From contig CAINOI010000017.1 of NCBI GenBank assembly GCA_903851465.1, positions 1 to 64,000 on the forward strand: a stretch of DNA of 64,000 nt, given 5' to 3'. The notes below the pieces were generated by a model. It saw only the letters and a program-made list of their open reading frames with translations, was not told the origin of the DNA and did no database searches. This document shows, piece after piece, positions 6,401 to 36,251 of this stretch; the stretch's first letter is position 1, and every line of letters starts with the position of its first letter. The stretch is from an uncultured Bacteroidota bacterium. Its GTDB lineage: Bacteria; Bacteroidota; Bacteroidia; Chitinophagales; Chitinophagaceae. Position numbers and translations under genes: made by a program.

Positions 6401-9400
6401 AATCCAATTCAGCAGCATCGGCTCCTGGTGAAATTACCATTGGTGCTGGTCTTGCATTAAATCCAACTTCAGGTGTTTTATCTGCAAGCGGAAGTGGAGG
6501 TACAGTGTCAAATGTAAGTGCATTAACCGTTACTGCAAGTGGAAGTACATTATCATCCACCGTTGCAAATGCTTCATCCACACCTGTCATCTCATTAAAT
6601 ATTCCATTAGCATCCGTTGCAGGAACTACTGCAGGTTTAATTAGTAAAACAGATTATGATGCATTCACTGGGAAAGTGACCGCTAATGCAGCAATAACAG
6701 GTGCAACAAAAACAAAAATCACTTTTGATACCAAAGGATTGATAACAGCAGGGGCGGATGCAACCACCGCAGACATTGCTCCAAGTACAAACAGGAATTA
6801 TGTAACAGACGCACAAGCAGGTGTTATTTCAAATACTTCGGGCACCAATACAGGGGATCAAACAATCACTTTAACAGGTGATGTAACTGGAAGTGGTAAA
6901 GGTAGTTTTGCAACAACATTATCCAATGCAGCCGTGTCTTATGCGAAGATCCAAAATATGTCTGCAAAATCTTTGATTGGAAATAAATCCCTAACTGCTG
7001 GTACTCCTGGTGAAATTACTTTAGGAACTGGTTTAGCATTAGATGCATCTACTGGTGTTTTATCTGCTAGTGGATCTGGTGGAACGATTGGTGGATCTGG
7101 AACAGCAAGTTATATTCCTAGGTTCAATGGATCTACAACAACATTGGGGAATAGTATGATTTTTGACAATGGAACTAGTATTGGAATAAATACAGCAAGT
7201 CCTTCAAGTAGTTTTAAATTAGATGTAAATGGTGCTGCAAATTTTACTAATGATATTGTTGTGAATGGACTTAAAATTGGTAAAGGAAATAGTAATACAG
7301 GCGAAAATACTGCATTGGGTGTTAATGCGCTTTCATCTAATTCTGGAAATTTTAATACAGCAATTGGTTTTGATGCATTGAAATTAAGTTCATCATCAAG
7401 TTATAATTCAGGCTTCGGTTCAAGGTCACTTAGTAATAATACAACTGGTTTTGAAAATACTGGATTAGGATTTCAATCACTTTATGCTAACACAACAGGT
7501 AATTACAATACTGCACTTGGTGTTAATACAATGGCAACAAACACTACTGGCTCTTTAAATATTGCATTAGGTAATGCTAGTTTATACAATAATACAACAG
7601 GAGATAATAATACTGCATTAGGTAGAGCTGCATTATTTACAAATACAACTGGATCTTCAAATACAGCAATAGGTATTAACGCTGATGTATCAACGGGTAA
7701 TTTAAGTAATGCAACTGCTTTAGGTAATGGCGCAATTGTATCTGCAAGTAATACGATTCAGTTGGGTAATTCAGCAGTTACAAATGTTAAAACAAATGGA
7801 ACTATCACAGCGGGAGCAATCACTTATCCGAATGTGGCGGGCACCAATGGTTATGTATTAACAACTAACGGTTCAAATACAGCAACCTGGACCGCTGCAG
7901 CAACAGGTATTGGTGGATCTGGAACAGCAAGTTATATTCCAAAATTTAATGGGTCTACAACAATATTAGGGAATAGTAAATTATTTGATGATGGCACTAG
8001 TATATTAATTAATTCTGCTACCTCTGCTTTAACAGGCGGTAGTGCCTTATTAGTGAATAATGGTAACAATGCAGCTCCTGTAATAACTGGTACTACTCAA
8101 ACAGGTGGTGCTTTGAGAATTAGAGGTGGGGATAATACTGTTATTGATTTTGGTACTGTGAGTACAAAACCTTGGATACAAGCAGGCGACGCTGGTAATT
8201 TAGCAACAAAATATCCATTGTATCTTAATCCAAATGGCGGAAACGTAGCCATAGGATTAGGAACTGCTTCTGCTTTTACAAGTGTATTACAAGTGAATGG
8301 AGACGTGGGCGCAACTACATTTAATAATTTAGCTTTAAAAAGAATTAGTTCTAGTATGGCAATAGGTTCAGGCGCACCTTCTGTTACAGGTAATGATAAT
8401 ATAGCCATTGGACAAGAGACTTTAAATTCATTAACAACAGCAGGACAAAATATTGCGATTGGATATCGATCCATGTATAAAACTAATACTGAGGAAAATA
8501 CTGCAGTTGGATACATGAGTATGTTTGAAAATACAGGTGGTAGGTATAATACTGCTATTGGTTTTAAATCAGGTTATGACAATACAAATGATTACAATAC
8601 TTTCTTAGGATATTATGCTAACTCAAGTGGATCAATTACGAACGCAACAGCAATTGGTAATGGGGCAATTGTTACTGCAAGTAATACGATGCAATTAGGA
8701 AACACAAATGTTACCAGTGTTAAAACAAGTGGTGCATTCAATGCCCCAGTTTATTCAAGTTCACCTGTTGCCTTAACTGCTGGTACAACAATCACTTGGG
8801 CTCCTATGTTGGGATTGAATGCAAGTGTTACTTTGAATGCAAACAGTAACCTATCATTTGGCGCAACGGCTCCACCTGCAGGTTCTAGTGGTACATTAAT
8901 TGTTACACAACCAGCTTCTGGTAGCACTTATACTTTAGCACTTCCATCAGGCGGTACACACAGAGTATTGGGATCTGCATCTGGTATTACTTTATCAACT
9001 ACTAATGGTGCAAAAGACATTGTAAGTTTTTATTATGATGGAAGTATTTATTATTGGAATGTTGGTTTAGGATATGGCTCTGCACAAAGTTTATCAGCAA
9101 ACTCATTGACTGGTGGCGTTGCTGGTGCAATTCCTTATCAAACTGCTACCAATACTACAGGATTTACTGATGCTGGCACTACTGGACAGGTATTAACTTC
9201 TCAAGGAGTAGGTAAGCCAACATGGACAACTCCTACTACAGGTATTGGTGGATCTGGAACAGCATCTTATATTCCTAGGTTTAATGGATCTACAACAACA
9301 TTGGGCAATAGTATGATTTTTGACAATGGAACTAGTATTGGAATAAATACAGCAAGTCCTTCAAGTAGTTTTAAATTAGATGTAAATGGCGCTGCAAATT

Positions 9401-11658
9401 TTACTAATGATATTGTTGTGAATGGACTTGAAATTGGTTTAGGAAATGGTGCAATAAGTTCAAACATAATGTTAGGTAATTTTGAAGTTGGATATGCTAA
9501 CTCTACTGGAAGTAATTTAACAGCAATAGGGACAGGTAGTTTCAGGTATAATTCAACTGGTAGTAATAACGTTGGTGTAGGTTATTGGGCTTTAAGAAAT
9601 AACAGTACTGGAAGTAGAAACGTTGCTATAGGTGATAATTCTTTAACATCTAATATTACAGGAACTAATATCACTGCAATAGGTTATGGCGCCAATTCTG
9701 CAGATGGTTTGACAAATGCTACAGCAATAGGTAATGGCGCAAATGTATCAACTAGTAATACTATACAATTAGGGAATGGGTCAGTTACTGATGTAAAAAC
9801 TAGCGGTATGATTACGGCATCATCGATTACGGCACCAACTATAAATGGTGCTTCTATTAAATTAGGAGCTGGTTCCATTTCATCAAATATTGTACTAGGT
9901 GGTAATTCTAATACATTTAGTGGAAATAGTACCGGTGCTGAAAACTTTATTTTTGGTAATAATACAGCAATGGCTAACACAACGGGTAGTTATAATATTG
10001 CTATGGGTACGGAAGCGTTTAGGTATAATACTACTGGTAGCCAAAGTATTGGATTAGGATATTATGCTTTAAGACTAAATACTACGGGTAATTATAATGT
10101 TGCTATAGGGTATAATGCATTGCAAACTAATGCAACTGGGTCTTATTTAACTGCAATTGGATATGGCGCAAATTCTGCAGACGGTTTGACAAATGCTACA
10201 GCAATAGGTAATGGCGCAAATGTATCAACTAGTAATACGATTCAGTTGGGTAATTCAGCAGTTACAAATGTTAAAACAAATGGAACTATCACAGCGGGAG
10301 CAATTACGTATCCGAATGTGGCAGGCACCAATGGGTATGTTTTAACAACTAACGGTTCAAATACAGCAAGTTGGGTTGCTGCAGCAACAGGTATTGGTGG
10401 ATCAGGAACAGCAAACTATATTCCTAAGTTTAATGGATCTACAACAACATTGGGGAATAGTTTAATTACTGATGATGGTACAGGTATTCGTATCGGAAAT
10501 CCTAGTTCGTATTCTGGATTGAATTCAGATAATAATACCAGATTATTTGTAAATGGAGGAAGAGAATCTGAAAGTATAAAAATGTCTTTCCCTGGAGATC
10601 CATATAACAATGAACTTTCTTTTAACTGGTATTCTTCTGCATGGAGAATGAGAACTGAGAGAAGTAGTGCTGAAATCACAGATTTATCTTTTTGGAGAAC
10701 ATCTGCAGGAACAACAACAGAACAAATGAGATTAACATCTTCAGGTAATATGAATTTAACGGGCTCTATTAAAACAGGGGCTATTACTTATCCAAATACA
10801 GCAGGCACCAATGGGTATATATTAACAACTAACGGTTCAAATACAGCTTCATGGACTGCACCTAGTTTTGTTGATTTATCTTCTGCACAAACTGTAGGCG
10901 GTATAAAAACATTTTCTGCGGCATCAACAGTTATCAATAATAATTTAACAGTCAATTCAGCTGGAACTACTGGACAAGGATTAACCTTATCGGATGATGG
11001 TGATTTTGTAGACAATAATGATGGCTTTGGTACATTCCGTTTGACTGGCGGTATTAAGATCAATAGTAATAAAGGTGCATTAGGCACAGCGACAAATATT
11101 ACACTAGCAAGTGGTGGTAATATAACTGCAGCAGGTTCGATCACAGCTTCGAGTATAAAATTAACATCAGGCGCAGCAAATGGGTATATCTTAACTTCAT
11201 CAGCAGATGGTACAGCAAGTTGGGCTGCATCAAGTTCTTCTATTTCTGGAGGTACTACCAACGCACTTCCTAAATATTCTTCTGCAACTGCTATTACGCC
11301 AAGTGCAATTACCGATGATGGTACAACTGTTTCATTAGCTAGTACAAGAACTTTAACTGGTGCGAATGCTGCAGTGAACGCACAAACAGGAACAGCATAT
11401 ACTTTAGTTCAAGGGGATAATGGAAGAGTGATTACAATGAACAATGCATCTGCAATTACTTTAACGATTCCATCTGGCTTGACTGCAGGGTTCAACTGTA
11501 TGATTGTTCAGTATGGTGCAGGTACAGTAACTATTGCAGGTTCTGGTGTGACTGTAGTTAATAGATCAAATTATACTAAAACAGGTGGACAATACGCAAT
11601 AGTCACTATTGTAAGTCCTGTTACAAATACGTTTATCACTGGAGGCGATATGCAATAA
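484..11658 (+). CDS. Giant secreted tail-fibre-like / adhesin protein (3,724 aa)
   Basis: Signal peptide at residues 1-22 (cut near LIA-Q). Residues 24-155 match an N-terminal domain that I know from many Bacteroidota surface proteins (LFQAVARDANGN ... QLWTVPYALF). Residues about 245-996 hold about twenty copies of a 25-residue repeat of the form KVNIADTxxMLxPYAIRSNTxxSIN, some followed by AEKTRAIAAENLR. This region is probably a trimeric coiled shaft. From about residue 1000 there are phage-tail-fibre-like motifs (APTATTGTSNTQIATTAFV, GGTGVDNTGKTITLGG, PTITVDAKGRV). Four YadA-head-like blocks (NTALG/NTAIG every 13-15 residues) lie at about 2268-2430, 2620-2750, 2985-3110 and 3130-3270. The last 90 residues form a compact domain ending in ITGGDMQ. 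There is no T9SS tail and no recognisable S74 chaperone. It heads a compact operon, and its paralogue is at 21424. A surface fibre is inferred. Confidence 0.9.
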   Translation: MFKKILSLIVLATLFSNANLIAQITPDGILFQAVARDANGNAASGRNIYAKVNLLKGTKNGSSIYAESFKVVSTDDGVFTIVIGKGTRTSGVTSLKAIAWNEALYFVNIQIAIEPTIPGIGWTADNNYIDIGTEQLWTVPYALFSSKATVADSAMSISTIVPGSKGGTGVNNDGKTITLGQNLTFKGTGDITITTTGASNISFPTTGLLANTQYVTDRIGTDTVSLSNRINAINLTANNATSLKVNISDTASMLNPYLRKVDTASLSKRINIKLDSAQIPGIIAPYLATVAGVKYTDTALMLSNRFARDTVSLSNRINNNKQSIIDSANALNTRKVNYTDTALMLAPYALSANTAATNNTKVNIVDTTAMLLPYAIRLNTETSIDAEKTRALAAEALRVKYSDTATMLSPYAIRSNTVASINAEKTRAIAAENLKVNIADTTAMLSPYAIRSNTETSINGKVNIVDTTAMLSPYAIRSNTVAIINEKVNILDTSSMLLPYAIRSNTVASINTKVNIADTANMLSPYAVLSNTVASINAEKTRAIAAENARVKYSDTTSMLTPYAKLANTEASINEKVNILDTASMLLPYAIRSNTVASINTKLPIADTTIMLSPYAIRSNTETSINAEKTRAIAAENLRVKYIDTTAMLSPYAIRSNTESSINEKVNIVDTAAMLLPYAIRSNTVASINTKVNIADTTAMLSPYAIRSNTEISINAEKTRAIAAENLRVKYIDTTAMLSPYAIRSNTVASINEKVNILDTAAMLLPYAIRSNTVASINEKINIVDSATMLLPYAIRSNTETSINAEKTRAIAAENLRVKIADTSSMLLPYAIRSNTVASINEKVNIADTASMLLPYAIRSNTETSINAEKTRALTAEALRVKYSDTASMLSPYALRSSTTNFINEKLNISDTSTMLSPYAIRSNTVNSINAEKTRALTAEALKVNIADTASMLSSYYNKTAADDRLILKVNNADTAAMLLPYAIRSNTVASLNLKAPLVSPEFTGTPKAPTATTGTSNTQIATTAFVAASISNGATPDATTTSKGKLQLANDLGGTADLPTVISVGGSTAANINAAEILANAATAANTNNKIVKRNASGDFSAGTITANLLGTSTNVTGIVLGANGGTGVDNTGKSITLGGNFNTGAAFTTTGTTGAGNAADITLKTTGASELTLPVTGTLATLTGLEALTNKTINGITPTAAANGFILAGGTTSKTLTVNNNATVSGTNTGDQTINLTGDLTGSGVGTFSTTLASSGVTAGSYGSATVVPTITVDAKGRVTNVTNTTISGVSPVGSAMGSGKIIVGNALGVASIVDMSGDVTIDNLGVTTIGNNKITTDKVLNSNITYSKIQNVTTGKILGRTSAGNGIVEEIATTGTGDVVRAISPTFTGAPLVPTAIVSSNDGTIANTEFVKRAISNIDANAVDGIISGEKGGTGIANTGKTITLGGNFATSGANSLMFTTTGATNVTVPTSGTLATVAQLNAIQGGTFSGGQITGIVAPANGGTGIDNTGKTITLGGSLLTGAAFTTTGTTGSGNAAAITLKTTAATDLTLPTSGTVATLNGSETLTNKTITASANSISGLTNANLSGTAGITDANLATISTAGKIANTATTATNANTINTIVARDASGNFIAGTISAALAGNAATATKLATAVSIYGNSFDGSTDLGQVIAPLYGGTGNKFTKFTGATSSEKIYNLPDANTTILTTNALITPAQGGTGVATAAMNTFFAGPTSGSDAAPSFRPLAASDLPAGNGSYIANSTTQQANSNFNISSAGVIGGSLTAGSIIKQGGTAAQFLKADGTVDSRSFATLTGSEALTNKSINGVTPTAVTTGFTIAGGLTNNKILTVAADANVSGTNTGDVALSGQNYLSISNQTITAAAVNLSGTNVTGTLAAARFPALTGDITNTAGTVATTISNDAITSTKIADNAVTSTKIADNAVTSDKIVTGAVALNKIAPISVQTLLGNKSNSAASAPGEITIGAGLALNPTSGVLSASGSGGTVSNVSALTVTASGSTLSSTVANASSTPVISLNIPLASVAGTTAGLISKTDYDAFTGKVTANAAITGATKTKITFDTKGLITAGADATTADIAPSTNRNYVTDAQAGVISNTSGTNTGDQTITLTGDVTGSGKGSFATTLSNAAVSYAKIQNMSAKSLIGNKSLTAGTPGEITLGTGLALDASTGVLSASGSGGTIGGSGTASYIPRFNGSTTTLGNSMIFDNGTSIGINTASPSSSFKLDVNGAANFTNDIVVNGLKIGKGNSNTGENTALGVNALSSNSGNFNTAIGFDALKLSSSSSYNSGFGSRSLSNNTTGFENTGLGFQSLYANTTGNYNTALGVNTMATNTTGSLNIALGNASLYNNTTGDNNTALGRAALFTNTTGSSNTAIGINADVSTGNLSNATALGNGAIVSASNTIQLGNSAVTNVKTNGTITAGAITYPNVAGTNGYVLTTNGSNTATWTAAATGIGGSGTASYIPKFNGSTTILGNSKLFDDGTSILINSATSALTGGSALLVNNGNNAAPVITGTTQTGGALRIRGGDNTVIDFGTVSTKPWIQAGDAGNLATKYPLYLNPNGGNVAIGLGTASAFTSVLQVNGDVGATTFNNLALKRISSSMAIGSGAPSVTGNDNIAIGQETLNSLTTAGQNIAIGYRSMYKTNTEENTAVGYMSMFENTGGRYNTAIGFKSGYDNTNDYNTFLGYYANSSGSITNATAIGNGAIVTASNTMQLGNTNVTSVKTSGAFNAPVYSSSPVALTAGTTITWAPMLGLNASVTLNANSNLSFGATAPPAGSSGTLIVTQPASGSTYTLALPSGGTHRVLGSASGITLSTTNGAKDIVSFYYDGSIYYWNVGLGYGSAQSLSANSLTGGVAGAIPYQTATNTTGFTDAGTTGQVLTSQGVGKPTWTTPTTGIGGSGTASYIPRFNGSTTTLGNSMIFDNGTSIGINTASPSSSFKLDVNGAANFTNDIVVNGLEIGLGNGAISSNIMLGNFEVGYANSTGSNLTAIGTGSFRYNSTGSNNVGVGYWALRNNSTGSRNVAIGDNSLTSNITGTNITAIGYGANSADGLTNATAIGNGANVSTSNTIQLGNGSVTDVKTSGMITASSITAPTINGASIKLGAGSISSNIVLGGNSNTFSGNSTGAENFIFGNNTAMANTTGSYNIAMGTEAFRYNTTGSQSIGLGYYALRLNTTGNYNVAIGYNALQTNATGSYLTAIGYGANSADGLTNATAIGNGANVSTSNTIQLGNSAVTNVKTNGTITAGAITYPNVAGTNGYVLTTNGSNTASWVAAATGIGGSGTANYIPKFNGSTTTLGNSLITDDGTGIRIGNPSSYSGLNSDNNTRLFVNGGRESESIKMSFPGDPYNNELSFNWYSSAWRMRTERSSAEITDLSFWRTSAGTTTEQMRLTSSGNMNLTGSIKTGAITYPNTAGTNGYILTTNGSNTASWTAPSFVDLSSAQTVGGIKTFSAASTVINNNLTVNSAGTTGQGLTLSDDGDFVDNNDGFGTFRLTGGIKINSNKGALGTATNITLASGGNITAAGSITASSIKLTSGAANGYILTSSADGTASWAASSSSISGGTTNALPKYSSATAITPSAITDDGTTVSLASTRTLTGANAAVNAQTGTAYTLVQGDNGRVITMNNASAITLTIPSGLTAGFNCMIVQYGAGTVTIAGSGVTVVNRSNYTKTGGQYAIVTIVSPVTNTFITGGDMQ
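1216..3470 (+). repeat. 25-residue shaft repeats of giant protein 1
   Basis: About twenty degenerate coding repeats, each about 75 nt, encode KVN-x-x-DT-xx-ML-x-PYAIRSNT-xx-SIN. About nine copies carry an extra 13-residue insert AEKTRAIAAENLR. Wording is conserved at protein level while third bases vary, so this is an old array under selection rather than a fresh expansion. The register suggests a fibrous trimeric shaft. Confidence 0.85.
7087..7281 (+). repeat. Intragenic direct duplication, copy A
   Basis: This 195-nt stretch (IGGSGTASYIPRFNGSTTT to NGLKIG) recurs at 9244-9438 with a constant offset of 2,157 nt and only a handful of base differences by eye. Diverged versions of its first part occur again near 7909 and 10393. 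It is the linker module placed before each beta-roll block. Confidence 0.85.
7267..7770 (+). repeat. YadA-head-like beta-roll block, shared with giant protein 2
   Basis: Encodes tandem repeats such as GNFNTAIGFDAL and NNTTGDNNTALGRAAL, with [ST]-G-x-x-NTA-[IL]-G recurring, as in the left-handed beta-roll heads of trimeric autotransporters. The DNA is collinear without indels to 30049-30552 in the paralogue (constant offset 22,782) and nearly identical, which points to a recent conversion or duplication event. Confidence 0.75.
7753..7884 (+). repeat. Second intragenic duplication, copy A
   Basis: This 132-nt stretch encodes TIQLGNSAVTNVKTNGTITA through NGYVLTTNGSNTA. It recurs at 10237-10368 with a constant offset of 2,484 nt and very few differences. 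Confidence 0.8.
8341..8740 (+). repeat. Second beta-roll block of giant protein 1
   Basis: Encodes a further set of head-type repeats (NDNIAIGQETL, GQNIAIGYRSM, EENTAVGYMSM, RYNTAIGFKSG, DYNTFLGYYA) and closes with the standard cap ATAIGNGAIVTASNTMQLG. The same cap ends each of the other beta-roll blocks. Confidence 0.7.
9244..9438 (+). repeat. Intragenic direct duplication, copy B
   Basis: Second copy of the 195-nt linker module at 7087-7281. The near-identity at silent positions shows a recent duplication or gene conversion inside the giant gene. Confidence 0.85.
9430..9810 (+). repeat. Third beta-roll block of giant protein 1
   Basis: Head-type repeats of the form NSTGSNNVGVGYWALR and NSTGSRNVAIGDNSL, capped by ATAIGNGANVSTSNTIQLG. 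The cap DNA is almost identical to that of the fourth block, about 480 nt downstream. Confidence 0.7.
9850..10275 (+). repeat. Fourth beta-roll block of giant protein 1
   Basis: Head-type repeats of the form NTTGSYNIAMGTEAF, NTTGSQSIGLGYYAL and NTTGNYNVAIGYNAL, with the same ATAIGNGANVST cap. Blocks three and four look like an internal duplication of one head module. Confidence 0.7.
10237..10368 (+). repeat. Second intragenic duplication, copy B
   Basis: Partner of 7753-7884. The offset differs from that of the 7087/9244 pair (2,484 against 2,157 nt), so the two duplications were separate events. Confidence 0.8.
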
Positions 11659-11666
11659 GAACTAAG

Positions 11667-13985
11667 ATGAAAAAAACTTTTCTTTTTTGCTTGATGCTAT
11701 GTTGCATGTTTCAAATTCATGCACAAATTGTTATGCCAAGCTTTCAACCTACGAACTATGCTAGTAGTTTCAATAAAACATTAAGTTCTATTGAGGTTTT
11801 AGCAGTGGGCGCTGGAGGAGGACCTGGAGGTACGGATGGTAATTATGGAAGTGGTGGTGGAAGTGGCGGAGCAGTGTTTACAAAAATTAATAATGCAAGT
11901 GGAGGCGTTTTAAATATCGCAATTGGTGGCGGTGGAATAAGTGGTAGAGGCTGTCTTACTAATGATGGAGCCGGAGCTGGAGGTACCAATGGTGGCGGCT
12001 CAGGTGGCAATGCCGGCGGTGGTGGATGTTCAGGCGGTGGTGGCGGAGGTGGTGGATGGTCAGGGGTTTACAATAGTACAACGAATGTTTATTTTGTGGT
12101 TGCAGGAGGTGGTGCTGGTGGAGGTGGATCCAATGAAGGCATTGCAAATGATGTGGTCGCACCAGGTGGTGGTACCACACAATCAGGTGGTGTTAATGGA
12201 ACAAGTATGAACGGAGGAACAGGGACTGCCTATTCTGGTGACGGCGGCGGCGGTGGTGGAGGAGGAGGTGGTTATTATGGTGGCTTAGGTCAAAATCCAA
12301 ATTCAAATACATATAATTATTTAGCAAGTGGCGGCGCAAATTATGCCAATCCTAGTTATACTTCTGGCACAGTAACTTATAGTGGTAATGGTAGTTCTGG
12401 TAATTCTGGAAACGGAACCCCTGGAGCTGCAGTTACAGTTTCCAATTCAGCCGCTTTTGGTTATACAAATAATAAAGGCGCAGGTGGTCAAGGAACATTG
12501 AGTGCAGGGGCTGGTAATTCAGGTTCAGATGGCATTGTCATTATAAGATACCTTGGACCACAGATTGCAACTGGTGGAGTCGTTTCAACAGTGAATGGTT
12601 ACACAGTACATACTTTTACAATAGCAGGTACTTTAACATTTAAAGTGTTGCCAGTTAAAGGAGCGATGGCACATTATATGGCGAGTGAATTTGCAAGCGG
12701 CGCCACTCCAACCACATGGACCGATCAAACTGGTAATGGTTATAACGCAACTATGAGCGGCGTTTCAACAGTAGTCAATACAACGCTAAAAAACAATGTG
12801 GTTTTACAAGGAACAACTGCTTCAAGTATTACTTTTCCAGTATTTTCAAATCATAATTGGTCCAATTCTAGTAAGTACACTTTATTTATTGTAACTAGGT
12901 ATACAAATAATACCAACCAAAGAATACTCACAGATTTATCAACTAACTGGTTAACGAGTCATTGGGGTGGCCAAGTTGGTATTGCACATCATAATGCTTG
13001 GATTACTGACGTTCCCAATGGACTTACCACTTTAGCATTGACTGATTGGGTTTTATTCACAGATCAAAATAGTTTAGCTCGATGTAATACAACAGAGGTA
13101 TCAAAATATCCACCAAATGCTGTAAGCGGATTCAGTCAGCTTGTAATAAATAATACTTCAGGAGTTTGGTATCCAGAAAGATCCGGATTTGAAATTGCAG
13201 AGCTCATTGTTTATCCTAGAACATTAAATAGTCAGGAAATTAATTTTGTTGAAACCTATCTATCTAATAAATATGGTGTTGCAGGAAGCAATGATGGACT
13301 TATGTTAAATTTAGATGCAAGTAATAAACAGTCCTATGATGGTAATGGAAATATTTGGACAGATGTCGTTTCAGGAAATCAAGTTCAATGGCCAAGTTCC
13401 CTTGCACCCGTTTTCAAAATTGACAATGGGGTTTCTGTCTTTTCAACTACGCCAACTCTTGCAACAACAGGGAACTTTCAATCCACTGGATATATAAATT
13501 TAAGAGAGGGTAATGGAGCTTATTCAGTAATGGCTATTTTTAAACCAAATAGTGTAACTGCAAGTAAGATATTAGTGAGCCTGGGTCCTTATTCAACAAA
13601 TTGTGATGCAACAAACATAGCAGCAATTTCAATTGGGGCTAGTGGTAGATTTTCAAATGAGGCTTGTGGAACTTCATCTACTTGGAATACGATATCAGGA
13701 GCAACACCAACAACTTCAAGATTTTGGACTGTGACCAGCACTTTTACAGGGGGTACTAATGGCACATCTACAGTTTATGTAGATGGTGTCTTTGATAAGT
13801 CGGGAACAATGACTACAAATACCCCTGTAAGTGCTAATAACAAAATTACCATAGGCTGGGTAAGTGATGGTTCACTAAGTATGGATGCTAATGTAGCAGT
13901 GATATTGTATTACAACCGAGCCTTACCTGCAAACGAAGTATTGGCATTGTATAATAAATATAAAAAAAGATTAAACCTACCTTAA
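11667..13985 (+). CDS. Secreted glycine-rich protein with two LamG-like domains
   Basis: 772 residues. Signal peptide at 1-19 (ends QIHA-Q). Residues about 20-33 (VMPSFQPTNYASS) form a short post-signal motif shared with three other LamG proteins of the cluster. Residues about 50-290 are extremely glycine-rich (runs of GGGGGGGG), resembling the polyglycine-sandwich adhesins of phage tail fibres and Gly-rich outer-surface proteins. Two concanavalin/LamG-like domains follow, at about 330-550 (typical ending IAELIVYPRTLNSQEINFVETY) and 555-770 (ending VAVILYYNRALPANEVLALY). It begins 8 nt after the giant gene and shares a TAATG stop-start overlap with the next gene, so all three are probably co-transcribed. 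A binding role at the cell surface is inferred. No T9SS tail is seen. Confidence 0.85.
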   Translation: MKKTFLFCLMLCCMFQIHAQIVMPSFQPTNYASSFNKTLSSIEVLAVGAGGGPGGTDGNYGSGGGSGGAVFTKINNASGGVLNIAIGGGGISGRGCLTNDGAGAGGTNGGGSGGNAGGGGCSGGGGGGGGWSGVYNSTTNVYFVVAGGGAGGGGSNEGIANDVVAPGGGTTQSGGVNGTSMNGGTGTAYSGDGGGGGGGGGGYYGGLGQNPNSNTYNYLASGGANYANPSYTSGTVTYSGNGSSGNSGNGTPGAAVTVSNSAAFGYTNNKGAGGQGTLSAGAGNSGSDGIVIIRYLGPQIATGGVVSTVNGYTVHTFTIAGTLTFKVLPVKGAMAHYMASEFASGATPTTWTDQTGNGYNATMSGVSTVVNTTLKNNVVLQGTTASSITFPVFSNHNWSNSSKYTLFIVTRYTNNTNQRILTDLSTNWLTSHWGGQVGIAHHNAWITDVPNGLTTLALTDWVLFTDQNSLARCNTTEVSKYPPNAVSGFSQLVINNTSGVWYPERSGFEIAELIVYPRTLNSQEINFVETYLSNKYGVAGSNDGLMLNLDASNKQSYDGNGNIWTDVVSGNQVQWPSSLAPVFKIDNGVSVFSTTPTLATTGNFQSTGYINLREGNGAYSVMAIFKPNSVTASKILVSLGPYSTNCDATNIAAISIGASGRFSNEACGTSSTWNTISGATPTTSRFWTVTSTFTGGTNGTSTVYVDGVFDKSGTMTTNTPVSANNKITIGWVSDGSLSMDANVAVILYYNRALPANEVLALYNKYKKRLNLP
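11800..12545 (+). repeat. Glycine-codon-rich low-complexity tract
   Basis: Dense GGN codons encode the polyglycine region of the preceding CDS. It is locally much more G-rich than the AT-rich surroundings, and the codons are mixed (GGT, GGA, GGC), so the tract is kept by protein-level selection. Confidence 0.8.
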
Positions 13986-14734
13986 TGTATTTTAAAAATA
14001 AATATATCATCTTATTTTTTGTGAGTTGTATTTTTAGAATACATGCACCTGCTCAAGGAAATATTTTTAGAACTCAAAATAGCACCCCAATTAACTCAGT
14101 TTTAATGGATGGATTAACTTCATTAAAAGCTTCAACAAGTGCCTATAAAATAAAACAAGACTTTCCAAATGCTGTGGACGGTCTTTATTGGATTAAAAAT
14201 TCAAATATTAATTCAGGAACGCCTTTTCAAATCTATGCCGATATGACAACGGACGGTGGAGGTTGGACATTGCTTATGACTAATATTGGCAATGCAGGAT
14301 GGACCTATGCAAATGCAATTTTAAGAAATGAAACAACACCGTCCCTGTCTGCAAATTATTCGATTGTACAATATGGGGACTATATAAAAAAGAGTGCAAC
14401 TTCTTTTCAATATATGATGGAAGCCAATGCAAGAAATAGGTGGGGTGGTATTTGGACTGCGAATGATGCCTATACCTTTGTTTCAACAACAAATGTTCAG
14501 ACAAATGTTACAAGAAATATAGCATGGGACACCTATGACTATGATCTTAATAACTCCAATTCGATTCAGCCTAGAATGCCATGGCGTACCACTGCAAGTA
14601 ATGGTTTTTTAACGACCGATGATGGTAGTGGAAACTGGTGGGGTACACTAATAACTAATAGTGGTTATACAACTGCACCCTGGATTTCTGGATATATGGA
14701 AACTCCATCTAAAATATATTATTGGGTGAGGTAA
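13985..14734 (+). CDS. Secreted fibrinogen-like domain protein
   Basis: 249 residues. Signal peptide at about 1-24 (MYFKNKYIILFFVSCIFRIHA). The mature protein is one fibrinogen-C-terminal-like domain. The family start is clear at residues about 58-100 (NAVDGLYWI ... IYADMTTDGGGWTLLM), matching the classical DGxYxI...YCDM.TDGGGWT pattern, with Ala in place of the usual Cys. The C-terminal half (NWWGTLITNSG ... YYWVR) is diverged. The start overlaps the previous stop by one base (TAATG), showing translational coupling. It is a paralogue of the next gene, with almost the same N-terminal 45 mature residues. Such domains usually bind sugars or acetylated groups. The ligand here is unknown. Confidence 0.85.
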   Translation: MYFKNKYIILFFVSCIFRIHAPAQGNIFRTQNSTPINSVLMDGLTSLKASTSAYKIKQDFPNAVDGLYWIKNSNINSGTPFQIYADMTTDGGGWTLLMTNIGNAGWTYANAILRNETTPSLSANYSIVQYGDYIKKSATSFQYMMEANARNRWGGIWTANDAYTFVSTTNVQTNVTRNIAWDTYDYDLNNSNSIQPRMPWRTTASNGFLTTDDGSGNWWGTLITNSGYTTAPWISGYMETPSKIYYWVR

Positions 14735-14802
14735 TAACGTATAATGTATTTCGCAATTAAATTATGAAACATAAAATTCAAGATAGAAAAGCACTTGCCC
14801 TA

Positions 14803-15612
14803 ATGAAGATTTATAATAAATATATCGTCTTGTTATTTATTAGTATTGTTTTTACAATGCAAATTACTGCGCAAGGTCATATTTTTAGAACTCAAAATAG
14901 TACGCCTATCAATTCAGTTTTGATGGATGGGTTGTCTGTATTAAAAGCTTCAACAAGTGCTTATAAAATAAAACAAGACTTCCCTAATGCAGTGGATGGC
15001 ATTTATTGGATTAAAAATCCAAATATCAATTCAGGAACGCCCTTTCAAATTTATGCAGACATGACAACGGACGGTGGAGGTTGGACATTAATATTAAAAA
15101 ACTCCACTAATGCAGGATGGACATACTTAAACACGATTGGATTAAATAATGGTACTGCTCCTAATTATTTTCCCTACACAAGTAATGCTAATATAATAAG
15201 TACTTCATCGGTCAATTATTCAATTGTGGGCTGGGCCGATTTCATTAAAAAAAGTACTACTGGTTTTCAATATATGTTAGATGCGGAAACTAGAGGCAGT
15301 TATGGAGGTATATGGACAGTGAATAATAATATTAGTTTTACTTCTTCTTCTAATGCAAGTACCATTGCATCTGGAGCCATTACTAGAAACATAAAATTTG
15401 GCACCTGGCCAGAAGCGGATGATGGGACTAATTTAGCGCCTCGTATGCCTTATTATACCAATTCTGGAAATGCATATTTAACGACTGATGCTGATAATGG
15501 TGGTAATTGGTGGGGGGCCTTGGTCACACAGTATTCTGGATGGACTTCTGCTCCTTGGATGGCGAGCGGAGGTGTAACAAGCCCTACTAATATTTGGTAT
15601 TGGGTAAGATAA
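14803..15612 (+). CDS. Secreted fibrinogen-like domain protein, paralogue
   Basis: 269 residues from the chosen ATG at 14803. An upstream in-frame ATG at 14764 would add 13 charged residues before the signal peptide. I chose 14803 because MKIYNKYIVLLFISIVF then aligns with the signal peptide of the preceding paralogue. The mature start (QGHIFRTQNSTPINSVLMDG) is nearly identical to that of the neighbour. The fibrinogen-like signature DGIYWI ... YADMTTDGGGWTL follows, then a diverged C-terminal half ending IWYWVR. The two genes are a tandem duplication whose framework is conserved and whose middle and C-terminal surface has diverged, which suggests different ligands (inference). Confidence 0.85.
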   Translation: MKIYNKYIVLLFISIVFTMQITAQGHIFRTQNSTPINSVLMDGLSVLKASTSAYKIKQDFPNAVDGIYWIKNPNINSGTPFQIYADMTTDGGGWTLILKNSTNAGWTYLNTIGLNNGTAPNYFPYTSNANIISTSSVNYSIVGWADFIKKSTTGFQYMLDAETRGSYGGIWTVNNNISFTSSSNASTIASGAITRNIKFGTWPEADDGTNLAPRMPYYTNSGNAYLTTDADNGGNWWGALVTQYSGWTSAPWMASGGVTSPTNIWYWVR

Positions 15613-15634: not shown

Positions 15635-17764
15635 ATGAAATTTTATATATCTTTTCTTTTCTTTATAATTATTTGTGGAACCAGTTCTGCTCAGCAATTT
15701 ACGTCCTCTTATCAGGGTTCTAATTTCTTAACAAAGAATTTAAACAATGCTTTAGATTTTGATGGCTTGAATGATTGCGTGATTACTACACTAGATGTGA
15801 ATTATTCCGCATTGCCAATTACTACATGGGAGGCATGGGTATTCCCAACTACAACTGATGGAGGATGGAGAACTGTTTTTGGCATTGAAGATGGCGGTTG
15901 GGATAGAAATGTATTTACGAATGGGGGTTCTTTTTTTGCAGGATTTGGTAATGGTGGATGGCAGATTACGACTGTTAACATGAATGAATGGCAACATATT
16001 GCTGTTGTTTATAACGAAGCAAGTGCTACTATGAAGTTTTATAAAAATGGGGTGGCTTTTACTTATTCAAATAGTATTGGTATTCCTGTATCTGCACAAA
16101 AATTTGCGATTGGGTCATCACAACAAGCAGGACCCAATCAATTTTTTCAAGGAAAAATTTCCGATGTACGCGTTTGGAACTATGAAAGGACGCAGGCTCA
16201 AATACAAGGAAGTATGAATACTGAATTAACTGGAGAGGAAACAGGGCTTGTTGCTTATTATCCTTTTAAACAAGGGAATCCCAATCAATCTAATTCCACT
16301 GTAACAACTTTGTTTGATGAAGTTGGAACCAATAATGGCACCATTACCAATTTTGCGTTATCAGGCACCACTAGCAATTTTACATTTGGGAAAATTCAAT
16401 CACGTATTCCAAGAAATAATTTAGTGATGCACGTGAATCCAGCATGGAGAAGATCTTATGCTGGCTCAGGCACTGCACTCAATGACCTTACGGAAAATGG
16501 AAACAATATGACCTTGCTTAGTAGTCCTACTTATTTGAATACACTTGGTGGAGTCATAAGTTTAAATGGTTCTAATCAATCAATTCAATCTATTAATAAT
16601 GCACCTATTAGTGGAACAAATAAACGAACTGTAGGACTATGGATTAATCCAACCTCATTTAATGGTTATGGTATAACAAGCATTCTATCTACAGGAGGCA
16701 CTTCTAATAATTCAGGAATGTATGGTGTTTATGCAACAGGCACAAATAAACTTGGGTTTTGGGGACACAATAGTGATTATGCTTCTGGTTTAACAATGAA
16801 TTTAAATACTTGGAATTTTATTGCTACATCTTATGATGGCAACGGAGTATTAAAATTACATGTGAATGGGTCAACCGAATCAGTTGGAAGAACCTTGAAT
16901 ACAGTCAGTAATAAAATAGATTTATTTTTAACTACCACGGGAAGTTTAGGAGAAATGATGATCTATGATCGCGACCTTTCTGCAAGTGATTTAGAATATA
17001 TTTATAATCGTACTAGATCAAAATATATTCCAGATGGTTTAACAGTGGCTACTGCTGCAACAAGTGCAAAAGCTATTAAAACTGCATATCCAAATTCACC
17101 AGACGGCGTTTATTATATTAATTTACCAACAGTAGGTGTTCAAGCGGTTTATTGTTTAATGGATAGTAAATATGATGGAGGTGGATGGATGATGGCGATG
17201 AAGGCAACAAGAGGAACTACTTTTAATTTCGACGCCAATTATTGGTATACAGCAAACACATTGAATCCTGCACAAACCAATCAAAATGATGGGGATGCAA
17301 AATTTGATGTAATGAACTATTTTGTCCCAACCGAAATGATGGCATTGTGGCCCGACATTCCTAATGTTGGCTCAGAAAGTGGCAGCATTGATAATTTAAA
17401 TACCTGGAGTTGGTTGCAAAAAAATTTAACTGACGGACGTACATTAATTTCCAGATTTTCTTCAGCACCCACCCAACAAGCTATTTACACATCCACCAAT
17501 GGAACGATGACATTTAATGGAAATGGAACACCTTTTAGTAATCAAGCAGGCTTTACATTTTACGGATTTAATTATACGACTTATGCACCTACAAAAGTAA
17601 GGTGGGGTTTTTCTTGGAATAACGAAACGAATCAAGATTCCAATGATGTGAGTGGAGGTATTGGAATGGCATCTGGTAGTTATTCCGCTGGTGATAGGGT
17701 TACTTGTTGCCCATATTATCAAGGGATTAATCAATCAGCAAGAGTTGAAATGTATGTTAGGTAA
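15635..17764 (+). CDS. Secreted protein with two LamG-like domains and one fibrinogen-like domain
   Basis: 709 residues. Signal peptide at about 1-19 (CGTSSA-Q). The post-signal motif FTSSYQGSNFLTK is shared with other cluster members. LamG-like domain 1 is at about 35-235 (NALDFDGLNDCVI ... ISDVRVWNYERTQAQIQ ... GLVAYYPF). LamG-like domain 2 is at about 260-465 (LGEMMIYDRDLSASDLEYIY). A fibrinogen-like domain is at about 470-709 (SPDGVYYINLPTVGVQAVYC ... DGGGWMMAMKAT), ending in a Cys-pair loop (RVTCCPYYQG) and ARVEMYVR. The last domain is very close to the last domain of the next protein, evidence of module sharing inside the cluster. A surface lectin-like role is inferred. Confidence 0.85.
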   Translation: MKFYISFLFFIIICGTSSAQQFTSSYQGSNFLTKNLNNALDFDGLNDCVITTLDVNYSALPITTWEAWVFPTTTDGGWRTVFGIEDGGWDRNVFTNGGSFFAGFGNGGWQITTVNMNEWQHIAVVYNEASATMKFYKNGVAFTYSNSIGIPVSAQKFAIGSSQQAGPNQFFQGKISDVRVWNYERTQAQIQGSMNTELTGEETGLVAYYPFKQGNPNQSNSTVTTLFDEVGTNNGTITNFALSGTTSNFTFGKIQSRIPRNNLVMHVNPAWRRSYAGSGTALNDLTENGNNMTLLSSPTYLNTLGGVISLNGSNQSIQSINNAPISGTNKRTVGLWINPTSFNGYGITSILSTGGTSNNSGMYGVYATGTNKLGFWGHNSDYASGLTMNLNTWNFIATSYDGNGVLKLHVNGSTESVGRTLNTVSNKIDLFLTTTGSLGEMMIYDRDLSASDLEYIYNRTRSKYIPDGLTVATAATSAKAIKTAYPNSPDGVYYINLPTVGVQAVYCLMDSKYDGGGWMMAMKATRGTTFNFDANYWYTANTLNPAQTNQNDGDAKFDVMNYFVPTEMMALWPDIPNVGSESGSIDNLNTWSWLQKNLTDGRTLISRFSSAPTQQAIYTSTNGTMTFNGNGTPFSNQAGFTFYGFNYTTYAPTKVRWGFSWNNETNQDSNDVSGGIGMASGSYSAGDRVTCCPYYQGINQSARVEMYVR

Positions 17765-17792: not shown

Positions 17793-20675
17793 ATGAGAAG
17801 GTTTAAATTTACTTATTTATTGATTTGTGTTTTGTTAACACAGCATTTGCATGCCCAAATGTTTACTGCTCCTTATCAAGCCGTAAATTATCAAAAGATT
17901 GTAAGTAATGGTCTTGCATTAGATGGAGTAGATGATTATGTTCAATTACCTGCTGGTGTTTATTTTAATGGAGATTTTACTTTTGAATGTTGGGTAAAAT
18001 TAAATGTATTTTCTAACTGGGCCAGGATTATAGATTTTGGTGCTGGTTCTGGTGTAGCAACTAATCAAGTTTTATTTGGATTTATATCAGGTAACACACC
18101 AAATGGCTATATTGATGGAAGTAACTTCGCTTTTCCAAGTGGGATTGAATTAAATAAATGGACACATTTAGCAATAACGCAATCAGGTACTACATTGACG
18201 GGATATATAAATGGAGTTAGTGTTTTAACAACTACTATTACAGCACCCGCAAACGTAACTAGAAACTCCTGTTTAATTGGGAAGAGTAATTATACAGGGG
18301 ATGCCAATTCAAATATGTCATTGGATGAATTTAGAATTTGGAATTATGCACGATCAACGACACAAATTTTGGGAAGTATGAATACTGAAATGTTAGGAAG
18401 TGAACCAGGTTTAGTTGCTTATTATAATTTTAACCAAGGCAATCCAAATACCTCTAATGCAGGTGTATCAACCCTTCTTAACGAAACAAGTTCTTTAAGT
18501 ACTTATAATGGTACGCTTACTAATTTTGCCTTATCAGGTTCAACAAGTAATTGGGTAGTAGGAAAAATAGAACCACTTATTCCAACGAATAGTTTAAAAT
18601 TATATGTGGATGCTGGCAAACCAAGGTCCTATGCTGGTTCAGGATCAGTAATGAGAGATCTGAGTGCAAGTGGTAATAATATGACTTTATATAATAGTCC
18701 AGCTTTTTATTCCGATTATGGAGGCAACTTAAATTTTAATGGAACGAATACTTATTTACAATCTATAAGTAATTCACCTATTACTGGTGCAAGTCCAAGA
18801 ACAGTATGTATCTGGTATAATCCAACAACTATAACCGATGGATATGGGACTTTATTTTGGACAGGCAATGATGCTATTCCTTATTCAACATATGGCATTG
18901 GTTTTAATTCTAGTAAATATTTATTTTGGGGACAGAATTCCGATGTTACTGATCTTACATTATTGCCAACAACAAATTCTTGGAATTTTATAGCTGCTGC
19001 TTATGGCGGAGGGGCTTCTGTTTATCAATATTTAAATGGTGTAGGTAATTTGAATTCAATTTCAAGTGCACTTAATACTCCTGCTGCTGCATTTATTTTT
19101 TCAAAAAGTGCCGGAACTGGTTTTACTGGTAAGCTAGGTAATATTATGGTTTTTGACAGAATGCTTACCAAAACAGATTTAGATAAATTATATTTTAATG
19201 TAAAGTCAAGAATACCAGATGGACTAACATCCCAAACTGCAGCTATTTCTGGATTACAATTACATTATGATTATCCCGCTTATCCTTCTGGTTGGTATTG
19301 GATAAAATCATCAATGATGCCCAATGCATTACAAATGTATGTGGACATGACTGAGGATGGGGGAGGTTATGATTTTTATCCAATTACTGCAGGCCCATCG
19401 GTTAATAATGTGCTTAGTAATAATGGAGGAACTTCGCTTGGTTTAGATTTGGTTTATCCAAGAAGTAAATACCATTGGAGGGCGATGTCTAATGCTGTTA
19501 AAGCTGCTATAACAGCTAATAAAAACGGTGCAGGCACTTATGATGATTTTTTTAGAACCACCTATGGGGTTTATAGAACTACAAATAATGGTAATGGGGG
19601 TAGTGGTAATTATTCTTATAAAGCAATGAGAAGTAGTGATTATGGTGGCAATGCAAATGCCCCCGATTGGATGGTAAAAGACAATGGTGGTTGGTGGTTA
19701 AGAGACGATGTAACTTATACCGAACCTAATGGGGATTATTCAGTAAATACTTTATTGGGGGGATCAACTTTACCTTATGCCTATAATTTAGAAAATATAA
19801 ATTTTAATGACGGTCCAAATGGATATTATGCAACAGGCAGTTATTACTTGGTTTCCACCAATGCGAAAAAAATTGCTCCTGATGGAAGAACAGTTGCAAC
19901 CGCTGCGACAAGTGCTAAAGCCATTAAAACTGCTTATCCAAACTCACCAGACGGCGTGTATTATATTAATTTGCCAACCGTAGGTGTGACACCTATCTAT
20001 TGTATCATGAATTCTGCAGTGGATGGTGGTGGCTGGATGCTTGCTATGAAGGCGAATTCAAATGGAAGCACTTCAAATCCACTACAAACATTTAAATATA
20101 CTGCATCCTATTGGACAACAACGGATATCTTGAATGCTAACGATAATACACTATCACCTGGGGATGCAAAATACCAAACGATGAATTATTTTCCAGCGAA
20201 AGACATTCTTGCACTTTGGCCAGATATTGCTTCTAATTATGGGTCATCGGTAACAGGAGGAAGTATTAATTTAGTATCTAGTTATAATAAATGGAGTTGG
20301 CTTGAAAATAATTTTAATGGTGGGAATACAACTACTTTAATTAATTTCTTTGCATCCGCCGCTAATGAGAATAAATTTATTTCAGATGCCAATAATTTCG
20401 CTGGTAAAGGCACCGCCTTCTCTACACAACCAGATGTACGCTTTTACGGATTTAATTATACCGCTTATTCTATTGCAAAAGTGAGATGGGGTTTTGCCTG
20501 GAATGAAAACGGTGGTGGACTTTATCCTAATGGTAATCAAGCATCCAATGATGTATCGGGTGGTATTGGCATGGGAACTTATTATGGTGAATATTCTGCC
20601 GGGGATAGGATAAGTTGTTGTGTTACCTATACGGGTATTAATCGTCCGGCAAGGGTAGAGGTTTATATTAGGTAA
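17793..20675 (+). CDS. Secreted protein with two LamG-like and two fibrinogen-like domains
   Basis: 960 residues. Signal peptide at about 1-21 (TQHLHA-Q). The post-signal motif is FTAPYQAVNYQ. LamG-like domains lie at about 40-245 (GLALDGVDDYVQLP ... LDEFRIWNYARSTTQI) and 258-470 (LGNIMVFDRMLTKTDLDKLY). Fibrinogen-like domain A, at about 475-690 (YPSGWYWIKSSMMPN ... MYVDMTEDGGGYDFY), is the same subtype as the C-terminus of the 1,302-residue protein at 37855. Domain B, at about 693-960 (SPDGVYYINLPTVGV ... YCIMNSAVDGGGWML), matches the preceding gene. It is the last gene of the first giant operon; a 231-nt gap follows. Domain exchange between the two operons is evident. Confidence 0.85.
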   Translation: MRRFKFTYLLICVLLTQHLHAQMFTAPYQAVNYQKIVSNGLALDGVDDYVQLPAGVYFNGDFTFECWVKLNVFSNWARIIDFGAGSGVATNQVLFGFISGNTPNGYIDGSNFAFPSGIELNKWTHLAITQSGTTLTGYINGVSVLTTTITAPANVTRNSCLIGKSNYTGDANSNMSLDEFRIWNYARSTTQILGSMNTEMLGSEPGLVAYYNFNQGNPNTSNAGVSTLLNETSSLSTYNGTLTNFALSGSTSNWVVGKIEPLIPTNSLKLYVDAGKPRSYAGSGSVMRDLSASGNNMTLYNSPAFYSDYGGNLNFNGTNTYLQSISNSPITGASPRTVCIWYNPTTITDGYGTLFWTGNDAIPYSTYGIGFNSSKYLFWGQNSDVTDLTLLPTTNSWNFIAAAYGGGASVYQYLNGVGNLNSISSALNTPAAAFIFSKSAGTGFTGKLGNIMVFDRMLTKTDLDKLYFNVKSRIPDGLTSQTAAISGLQLHYDYPAYPSGWYWIKSSMMPNALQMYVDMTEDGGGYDFYPITAGPSVNNVLSNNGGTSLGLDLVYPRSKYHWRAMSNAVKAAITANKNGAGTYDDFFRTTYGVYRTTNNGNGGSGNYSYKAMRSSDYGGNANAPDWMVKDNGGWWLRDDVTYTEPNGDYSVNTLLGGSTLPYAYNLENINFNDGPNGYYATGSYYLVSTNAKKIAPDGRTVATAATSAKAIKTAYPNSPDGVYYINLPTVGVTPIYCIMNSAVDGGGWMLAMKANSNGSTSNPLQTFKYTASYWTTTDILNANDNTLSPGDAKYQTMNYFPAKDILALWPDIASNYGSSVTGGSINLVSSYNKWSWLENNFNGGNTTTLINFFASAANENKFISDANNFAGKGTAFSTQPDVRFYGFNYTAYSIAKVRWGFAWNENGGGLYPNGNQASNDVSGGIGMGTYYGEYSAGDRISCCVTYTGINRPARVEVYIR

Positions 20676-20906: not shown

Positions 20907-21407
20907 ATGTATAATTTGAAAAATACGCTGATCATATTATTTCTCTTTTTTTGCTTGGGCGCCTCAGCTCAAATCAAGATCAGCTATTCTATTGGTGGTA
21001 TTGGCGGTAATATGAAAACAACGACCTACAGCAACCCATTGTTGATTTCTGGGGAAAACTGCTTCAATGTCTCCAATGCCTTAAACAAATTCTGGGGAAG
21101 CAACACAGGTGATTTTTTCATCAACTGTGTGGTGGATGTTGATTTTATCAAATTCAGCATTAAAATTAACCCTAATCCGGTGATCAACTATGCCACTGTC
21201 AAGTTTATCAATAAGCTTCAGAATGAAAGTAAGATGAGATTGACTGTTTTTAACAATACTGGACAACCGATGAAGGCATTGGATGTCACGCAAGAACAAT
21301 TTTTGACAGGCTACAGACTCGATATGACAAGCCTCCCAAGTGGGTATTATTTTATTCAAATTTCTTCTACAAGTCTTTTACAGACATTCAAAATATTGAA
21401 AAACTAG
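20907..21407 (+). CDS. Small secreted protein with T9SS C-terminal sorting domain
   Basis: 166 residues. Signal peptide at 1-21 (LGASA-Q). Residues about 22-88 form a short unrecognised segment with two cysteines. Residues about 89-166 are a typical type A T9SS sorting domain: INPNPVINYATVKF at its start, then LTVFNNTGQPMKAL, LDMTSLPSGYYFIQI and the closing LLQTFKILKN. T9SS carries such proteins over the outer membrane, usually to the surface or medium. It sits 16 nt before the second giant gene and is the only cluster member with this tail. It may be a surface anchor or accessory for the giant protein (inference). The region between signal and tail is too short for a common enzyme. Confidence 0.85.
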   Translation: MYNLKNTLIILFLFFCLGASAQIKISYSIGGIGGNMKTTTYSNPLLISGENCFNVSNALNKFWGSNTGDFFINCVVDVDFIKFSIKINPNPVINYATVKFINKLQNESKMRLTVFNNTGQPMKALDVTQEQFLTGYRLDMTSLPSGYYFIQISSTSLLQTFKILKN

Positions 21408-34661: not shown

Positions 34662-34682
34662 CTAAAATTTAAATCAATTATT

Positions 34683-36236: not shown

Positions 36237-36251
36237 TTAAAAAATTATTTT

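Follow-up and report, generated by a model that had tools for sequence, protein, structure and literature searches.

Two giant-gene operons and a common start segment

This study concerns a short segment that recurs at the starts of four exported proteins of an uncultured Bacteroidota bacterium of the Chitinophagaceae. We analyzed bases 1 to 64000 of contig CAINOI010000017.1 (GCA_903851465.1), a stretch of 64,000 bases referred to here as the window, which belongs to a draft genome of 1.91 Mb that is 91.5% complete. Two giant genes, giant 1 (484-11658; 3724 residues) and giant 2 (21424-32400; 3658 residues), lie on the forward strand of the window with small exported proteins encoded behind each of them, and the segment is found in four of these. 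Both giants, putative fibre proteins, share one plan: an N-terminal domain, repeats and a C-terminal domain. The N-terminal match to the MAT domain (NF053851) covers residues 18-95 and 17-95, immediately after the signal peptide, and reaches 22.5 and 30.3 bits; since these scores are under the curated cut-off of 60, we term the giants MAT-like (and the domain, MAT-N). The C-terminal domain, named GDM after its last residues, measures about 85 residues in an alignment of the giants with three related loci (L158, L159 and L160, described below). It makes up the last 90 residues of giant 1 (11386-11655), where it is modeled as a phage-type beta domain (pLDDT, the predicted local distance difference test, 85.6) and is our candidate docking platform; the family alignment places it at 32161-32397 in giant 2, which ends in ..LLTGDLQ.

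Proteins are designated here by the first base of their genes, and signal peptides were called by eye or via a simple rule. Protein 11667 (11667-13985; 772 residues; segment IVMPSFQPTNYASS) continues from the segment into a Gly-rich domain and ends in LamG_3, 15635 (15635-17764; 709 residues; QFTSSYQGSNFLTK) has LamG_3 (two stretches by Pfam) followed by a GGGW fibrinogen-like module, 17793 (17793-20675; 960 residues; MFTAPYQAVNYQK) has LamG_3, also in two stretches, and two GGGW modules, and 32404 (32404-33135; 243 residues; VTMPDFQAMQYVNS), in the second operon, has one LamG_3; all four are on the forward strand. Their LamG_3 (PF13385) scores, in the same order, are 38.8, 100.8, 115 and 59.7 bits, all above the gathering score of 27.6. 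An earlier note on this DNA had set a Gly-rich protein against three LamG proteins; that holds for the domain directly behind the segment, although 11667 also has its C-terminal LamG. The Gly-rich region, seen in 11667 only, scored 21 bits against PF21722 (cut-off, 24.3). GGGWT_bact (NF040941; cut-off, 30) was matched by 15635 (36.1 bits) and 17793 (56.4 bits) and, above cut-off, by 13985, 14764 and 37855, but not by 11667 or 32404. The module of 15635 is related to phage proteins (phrog_1325), and 17793 matched phrog_15727, a "virion structural protein," at an E value of 2e-62. Two of the four genes adjoin a giant, 11667 starting 8 bp past the stop of giant 1 and 32404 starting 3 bp past that of giant 2; 15635 and 17793 lie farther along the operon. 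Between 11667 and 15635 on the forward strand are a secreted GGGW protein (13985-14734) and its paralog (14764-15612), which share a distinct start segment (GNIFRTQNSTPINS and GHIFRTQNSTPINS, respectively) that does not contain the [FY]Q motif.

The four proteins carry the pattern AQ-x5-[FY]Q-x3-[YF] behind the signal peptide. As the earlier note had described, the motif is common to all four, with the positions and sequences it quoted, and we found the spacing, counted from the A-Q end of the signal peptide, to be identical throughout. The corresponding DNA pattern (GCNCAR-N15-TWYCAR-N9-TWY) matched the window five times, namely, on the forward strand at 11721-11759 (AQ-IVMPS-FQ-PTN-Y), 15689-15727 (AQ-QFTSS-YQ-GSN-F), 17853-17891 (AQ-MFTAP-YQ-AVN-Y) and 32458-32496 (AQ-VTMPD-FQ-AMQ-Y) and at 57724, inside an unrelated open reading frame, compared to a mean of 0.06 and a maximum of 1 in 100 shuffles. 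Genome-wide, only the four window proteins scored trustworthily with profiles built from the four regions, from the motif part or from 11 sequences. Weaker matches of the four-region profile, which includes the signal peptides, were rejected on reading as signal peptides, other frames or other proteins. One near miss in this genome has W-Q-G-S-F behind an unrelated signal peptide. Pfam and NCBIfam searches returned no family name for the motif.

Relatives of the motif proteins and the ends of fibre genes

Scanning genome contigs with the C-terminal modules of 17793, and without use of the motif, led to five loci (L158 to L162). L158, from an uncultured Bacteroidetes metagenome-assembled genome (MAG), is syntenic with the window and encodes proteins starting with AQSFMPSYHPANY, AQMFTAPYQGSNF and AQMFTAPYQAVNY, as well as two LamG-GGGW proteins starting with AQKFFSAHNT and one GGGW protein starting with AQVNKMFNTNNYTPI. 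In L159 (GQFLTPYQGTQIQ) and L160 (AQFIAPFQGVQNQ), from MAGs named Bacteroidetes bacterium and Cytophagaceae bacterium and found by GGGW homology, the motif stands ahead of a different domain, which we take to be PA14-like, and a GGGW module. No motif was visible in L161 and L162, whose sequences begin inside or after the GGGW module. A MAT-N profile of the giants, run in the genomes of these loci, detected further MAT-N-domain proteins, and their neighbourhoods held two orthologs of 32404 (L208, AQISLPNLQALQY; L211, AQVTLPNLQSLQY), again found without a motif search. When the four window segments were made into a profile and 28 starts were ranked by it, L160 and L159 came tenth and eleventh (E values of 0.005 and 0.025). 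A profile of all 11 segments, which form its own training set so that the result speaks to specificity only, matched exactly those 11 places in five genomes and one chance site (E value of 0.69). The GGGW proteins at 13985-15612 of the window lack LamG, while their L158 counterparts (3407-6363) have LamG behind the signal peptide, a difference that amounts to LamG gain or loss at one place.

The motif appears to be rare. With the 11-row profile, it was found in none of 395 other sampled genomes of the order, and three weak matches were dismissed for their wrong or implausible frames. The four-row profile matched 72 of 394 family genomes at E values of ≤0.3, which is about chance; none was real in the ten loci read out of 30, and the remaining weak matches have E values of 0.02 to 0.3. 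A loose scan of 72 viral loci recruited by 17793 gave five matches, none of them an exported LamG or GGGW protein; the one in L091, where YQAVNY follows a membrane stretch in an unrelated 180-residue protein, is a look-alike. In other genomes, the motif turned up only beside fibre genes, which bears out the link to fibre loci suggested in the earlier note.

This link could be narrowed to one type of fibre end. Each of nine GDM-ended proteins has, -1 to 8 bp behind it, a gene whose product starts like a signal peptide, and seven of these nine genes encode the motif. No motif neighbour was found for 12 MAT-N-domain proteins with another visible end (169 to 2309 residues), three of which had no following open reading frame, nor for a thirteenth that extends across L211 and L212. 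If the cases were independent, the odds of such a distribution would be ∼3 in 10,000 (7/9 versus 0/12) or 1 in 1,000 (7/9 versus 0/9), but they are overstated and the association is weaker than the count because the nine fall into about three lineages (giant 1 and L158; giant 2, L208 and L211; L159 and L160). The nine comprise four giants with MAT-N, the L158 protein, which is cut by the contig end, and the small proteins of L159, L160 (two) and L186. A GDM profile detected the domain in 4 of 395 class genomes, i.e., this genome, G546 (strong match), G450 and G530 (weak match), the last two without the motif. Four positions past the aromatic, the six motif proteins at the two loci with GDMQ ends all have N, and Q occupies that place in the three beside GDLQ ends and the two beside GDMTN ends. 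This pattern would fit a specificity of pairing between plug and fibre and is fully confounded with descent.

Several neighbouring genes recur in related loci. A small protein (40-432; ..LLFDHHFFSNKYYLHK..), perhaps a regulator, is encoded ahead of giant 1, and a look-alike precedes the giant in L213. Another small protein, with a type IX tail, lies immediately upstream of giant 2 (20907-21407), and proteins resembling it by eye precede MAT-N giants in L208, L159 and L216. Behind 32404, three exported paralogs (33141-37841), presumably of the formylglycine-generating-enzyme type, have a comparable order in L208 and L211; they are followed by an exported protein (37855-41763) that has YSGGSGGNYDTAQI-type repeats in tandem and ends in a GGGW module. 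Past 41.8 kb, the window contains what we take to be ordinary housekeeping genes, including those for an FtsH-type protease, a UppS-type synthase and a BamA-type protein. A 1045-residue MAT-N-domain protein appears identical, in its start and end as displayed, between L216 (G000:C64) and L218 (G546:C9), whose genomes belong to different families, indicating recent transfer or MAG contamination.

Phage counterparts of the GDM and GGGW domains

The GDM domain matched 196 phage records at E values of ≤1e-3, 167 of them from Gordonia phages; of the rows listed, most bear the annotation "minor tail protein." Five PHROG families were matched as well, at the C-terminal end in four. Of 17 annotated phage regions inspected, 16 have the domain at the very end of a protein (≤36 bases from the gene end). 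Each of the 17 continues with a gene on the same strand, which in 14 of the 16 C-terminal cases overlaps by 1 to 4 bp or begins 3 bp on; in the remaining two, the gaps are 33 and 54 bp. The proteins encoded next have starts that are alike within a phage group, such as MVLPNARYRTQRK, MALPANRFRAARR and MALPNARYRTQPK in some Gordonia phages. Four of five roseobacter-type phages have SLLLSSVSASA or a near variant, and Marinobacter phage PS6 has a similar start. Past residue 30, the proteins of V11 and PS6 have no match among the others, and those of V10, V13 and AX are weakly related. We discarded a Leu-Pro start as a common feature of these proteins and the 32404 family, finding it in only 4 of 17, all from Gordonia phages. 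On viral contig L168, a Gly-rich protein follows a GDM-ended one, as 11667 follows giant 1.

GGGW modules were found in 21 phage records, all from Synechococcus or Prochlorococcus phages (39 to 54% identity), and the related proteins lie behind fibre-like genes in all three phages inspected. S-PM2 has a ∼10-kb gene and then three "virion structural proteins" whose starts are alike by eye, in S-CAM4 a "tail fiber protein" precedes one such protein, and the module of P-TIM40 is found four genes past a "tail fiber protein." In IMG/VR loci L087 and L089, a repetitive fibre-like gene precedes three small proteins that match the LamG and GGGW parts of 17793 and whose starts are similar by eye.

The predicted fold of GDM resembles phage domains too. 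The model matched the Pa223 capsid spike over its C-terminal part (Z score of 11.4; 86 residues, 2.0 Å) and a KP1 baseplate protein (Z score of 8.5). Lower matches were to residues 87-180 of CBA120 TSP4 (7.6), T4 gp9 and gp10 (6.8 each) and a non-phage chaperone-substrate complex (6.4), and the tool warns that Z scores below 8, as for TSP4, gp9 and gp10, may reflect a common arrangement. Judged from its position, the matched stretch of TSP4 is XD1; in the excerpted account of TSP4, XD2 and XD3 bind other spikes, while the function of XD1 is, according to the authors, not yet fully understood (PMC8825819). Among Protein Data Bank (PDB) sequences, the best match of the GDM profile was a coat protein at an E value of 0.043. 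The fold matches support a kinship with phage domains and do not by themselves argue for docking.

A candidate docking segment, its alternatives and known systems

The motif seems to be separate from the LamG fold. By the earlier note's own standard, its reading would be refuted if the motif arose at random or as a part of LamG unconnected with fibre loci; this did not turn out to be so. We found no motif behind the signal peptide in any of 29 family-genome loci recruited via LamG similarity (the true start being visible in part only), about ten of which, by eye, run from the signal peptide directly into LamG. In an AlphaFold model of mature 32404 (29 sequences; mean pLDDT of 70.7), residues 1-18 have a pLDDT of <50 and no secondary structure, and the first LamG strand spans residues 21-24. 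Because the motif is unstructured in this model and precedes three kinds of domain (Gly-rich, LamG and the third type of L159 and L160), we regard it as no part of LamG. The Leu about nine residues on, which the earlier note had counted as part of the motif, belongs instead to the first LamG strand; this is seen in 32404 and follows from alignment for the other two proteins that begin with LamG.

On balance, we lean slightly toward the view that the motif is an N-terminal docking segment through which tip adhesins made as separate proteins would be held at the C terminus of surface fibres. Each giant gene would give rise to a long MAT-like surface fibre, presumably trimeric, whose fibre nature we infer from its family and whose last ∼85 residues would form the phage-type GDM domain. 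The gene a few bases downstream would encode an exported protein that, upon removal of its signal peptide, starts with ∼14 residues of free, unstructured peptide. This peptide might then attach to the trimeric fibre at its GDM end, in the way that gp38 sits on gp37, so that the protein would display its rear domains (Gly-rich, LamG or GGGW) as the fibre tip. Proteins 11667, 15635 and 17793 of the first operon, and 32404 of the second, could be such tips, and those sharing the segment could alternate on one fibre. The data favour the fibre, rather than the cell, as the docking site, with the GDM end as the proposed partner, since motif proteins follow GDM ends in 7 of 9 cases and other MAT-N ends in 0 of 12.

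A number of observations weigh against such docking. The aromatic-Q core holds in the four window proteins but is not strict, reading L-Q in the L208 and L211 orthologs of 32404 and Y-H in the L158 ortholog of 11667, which appears loose for a docking residue. Proteins 13985 and 14764 share an operon with the motif proteins yet lack the motif. The neighbours of two GDM ends, at L164/L186 (AQLGLSGVTAPNRSTGY; AQLGLSGVTAPNRSTGYALEYF in L186) and the second of L160 (AQLMVNNLSIRKPVIPN), are secreted and motif-less, so docking there would need other segments, and four of the nine GDM-ended proteins are small (201 to 355 residues), not giants. In G450, outside the nine, the protein encoded after a more distant GDM-like end (E value of 9.9e-10) has neither a signal peptide nor the motif, and in phage PMBT3 the GDM domain is not C-terminal. 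The small number of lineages and the warning on low Z scores count here as well. Finally, L160 and L159 outscore all other controls in the ranking of 28 starts, yet above them stand not only three L158 motif proteins but also two motif-less L158 LamG proteins, which share a LamG start contained in the four-segment profile; the match of L160 and L159 thus rests more on their P-[FY]-Q-G core and its position than on score.

The alternative that survives best, although we consider it unlikely, is plain inheritance: tandem duplication followed by domain exchange, in which the start was kept as a partnerless N-terminal arm or linker. Three of the four proteins are indeed LamG-first paralogs at one locus with detectably homologous N-terminal parts, and in the orthologs of 32404 the segment is less conserved (identities of 0.43 and 0.64) than the domain (0.74 and 0.80), an observation that also counts against docking. 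However, the segment stays constant while the rear domain switches among Gly-rich, LamG and the third type, two distant loci included, and no such arm is present in family-genome LamG proteins whose start is visible. Moreover, the segment evolves under constraint, its pooled nonsynonymous divergence over six pairs (0.19) being half that of the signal peptide (0.41), compared to 0.10 for the next ten residues and 0.17 for the domain; synonymous divergence in these pairs (1.2 to 1.9) is near saturation, and the motif-less pair of 13985 and its L158 counterpart was excluded.

Somewhat less probable still is that the segment is a cell-surface sorting or anchoring signal, read by the same partner as the giants' N-terminal domain, which has FQAV behind its signal peptide. 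An aromatic-Gln-small stretch follows soon after A-Q both in the giants (ITPDGILFQAVARD) and in the motif proteins ([FY]Q[AGP]). Of 100 exported proteins in the collected loci whose signal peptide is of the A-Q type, 13 have [FY]Q behind 3 to 7 residues, namely, eight motif proteins, four MAT-N domains and one unrelated protein (L073). Such a signal would also supply the surface route that is otherwise unexplained, as Pfam searches at E values of ≤0.1 gave no type IX C-terminal domain (Por_Secre_tail or CHU_C) for any of the four motif proteins, while 20907 has one. Nevertheless, when 11 motif segments were compared with nine MAT-N starts, only three columns aligned, with a score that 13 of 100 column shuffles also attained, so that in this test, a weak one given the short profiles, the likeness to the FQAV stretch was not above chance. 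The absence of a motif neighbour for the 12 MAT-N proteins without a GDM end, and of the motif in the exported proteins 13985 and 14764, also speaks against a sorting signal. A structural strand capping the following fold is highly improbable, for although the segment lies directly ahead of the first LamG strand at fairly constant spacing, it is unstructured in the model of 32404 (one protein only), is absent from family LamG proteins with a visible start and precedes unrelated folds.

Docking on the fibre end could be part of a broader picture, which we put forward more tentatively and regard as less likely than the docking itself: a surface machine resembling a phage tail fibre, with interchangeable tips on a common plug of ∼14 residues, trade of tips between operons by recombination behind the plug, and the residue four past the aromatic taking part in a specificity code. 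If docking is correct, bacteria would have adopted phage fibre proteins, as MAT fibres suggest, together with a separate, exchangeable tip held by its N terminus. It would also offer a small, concrete interface for testing, account for a common start on unrelated binding domains and make tip proteins recognizable as the gene directly behind a GDM-ended fibre. It would likewise bear on the role in adhesion of giant Bacteroidota surface proteins, which are usually annotated "tail fiber domain-containing."

The closest functional parallel may be gp38, whose gene lies directly downstream of the fibre gene; 11667 and 32404 are likewise encoded directly downstream of the giants. According to excerpts of two reports on T2/S16-type phages, gp38 caps the gp37 trimer via its N-terminal part (PMC6851490, PMC12892980). 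The proposed arrangement is alike in that a small separate adhesin would sit, via its N-terminal part, where a trimeric fibre has its C terminus, and one member, 11667, has what may be a Gly-rich tip domain. gp38 itself, as those excerpts describe it, is borne on the virion and has a three-helix N-terminal domain with Trp residues, whereas here a segment of ∼14 residues stands behind a signal peptide and there would be several adhesins per fibre. We did not detect sequence homology to solved gp38 adhesins: of the two proteins searched against PDB sequences, 11667 had no match at an E value of ≤0.01 and 17793 matched only 4qvs, over its LamG part. The cyanophages S-PM2, S-CAM4 and P-TIM40 share with the window GGGW proteins downstream of fibre genes, but theirs have different and longer starts, and no signal peptides were seen. 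Gordonia and roseobacter-type phages have the same C-terminal GDM domain, the same gene junction and a short common start within each phage group, but their proteins are virion parts with other start sequences. We found no description of such a Bacteroidota system in open-access papers searched with narrow terms, and "Bacteroid" occurs 0 times in the report on Bdellovibrio MAT fibres (PMC10769870). Like those fibres, the giants carry a related domain behind the signal peptide (NF053851) and a phage-like C-terminal domain; in the Bdellovibrio fibres, as excerpts of that report describe them, the tip is part of the same chain, whereas here the tips appear to be separate proteins (PMC10769870).

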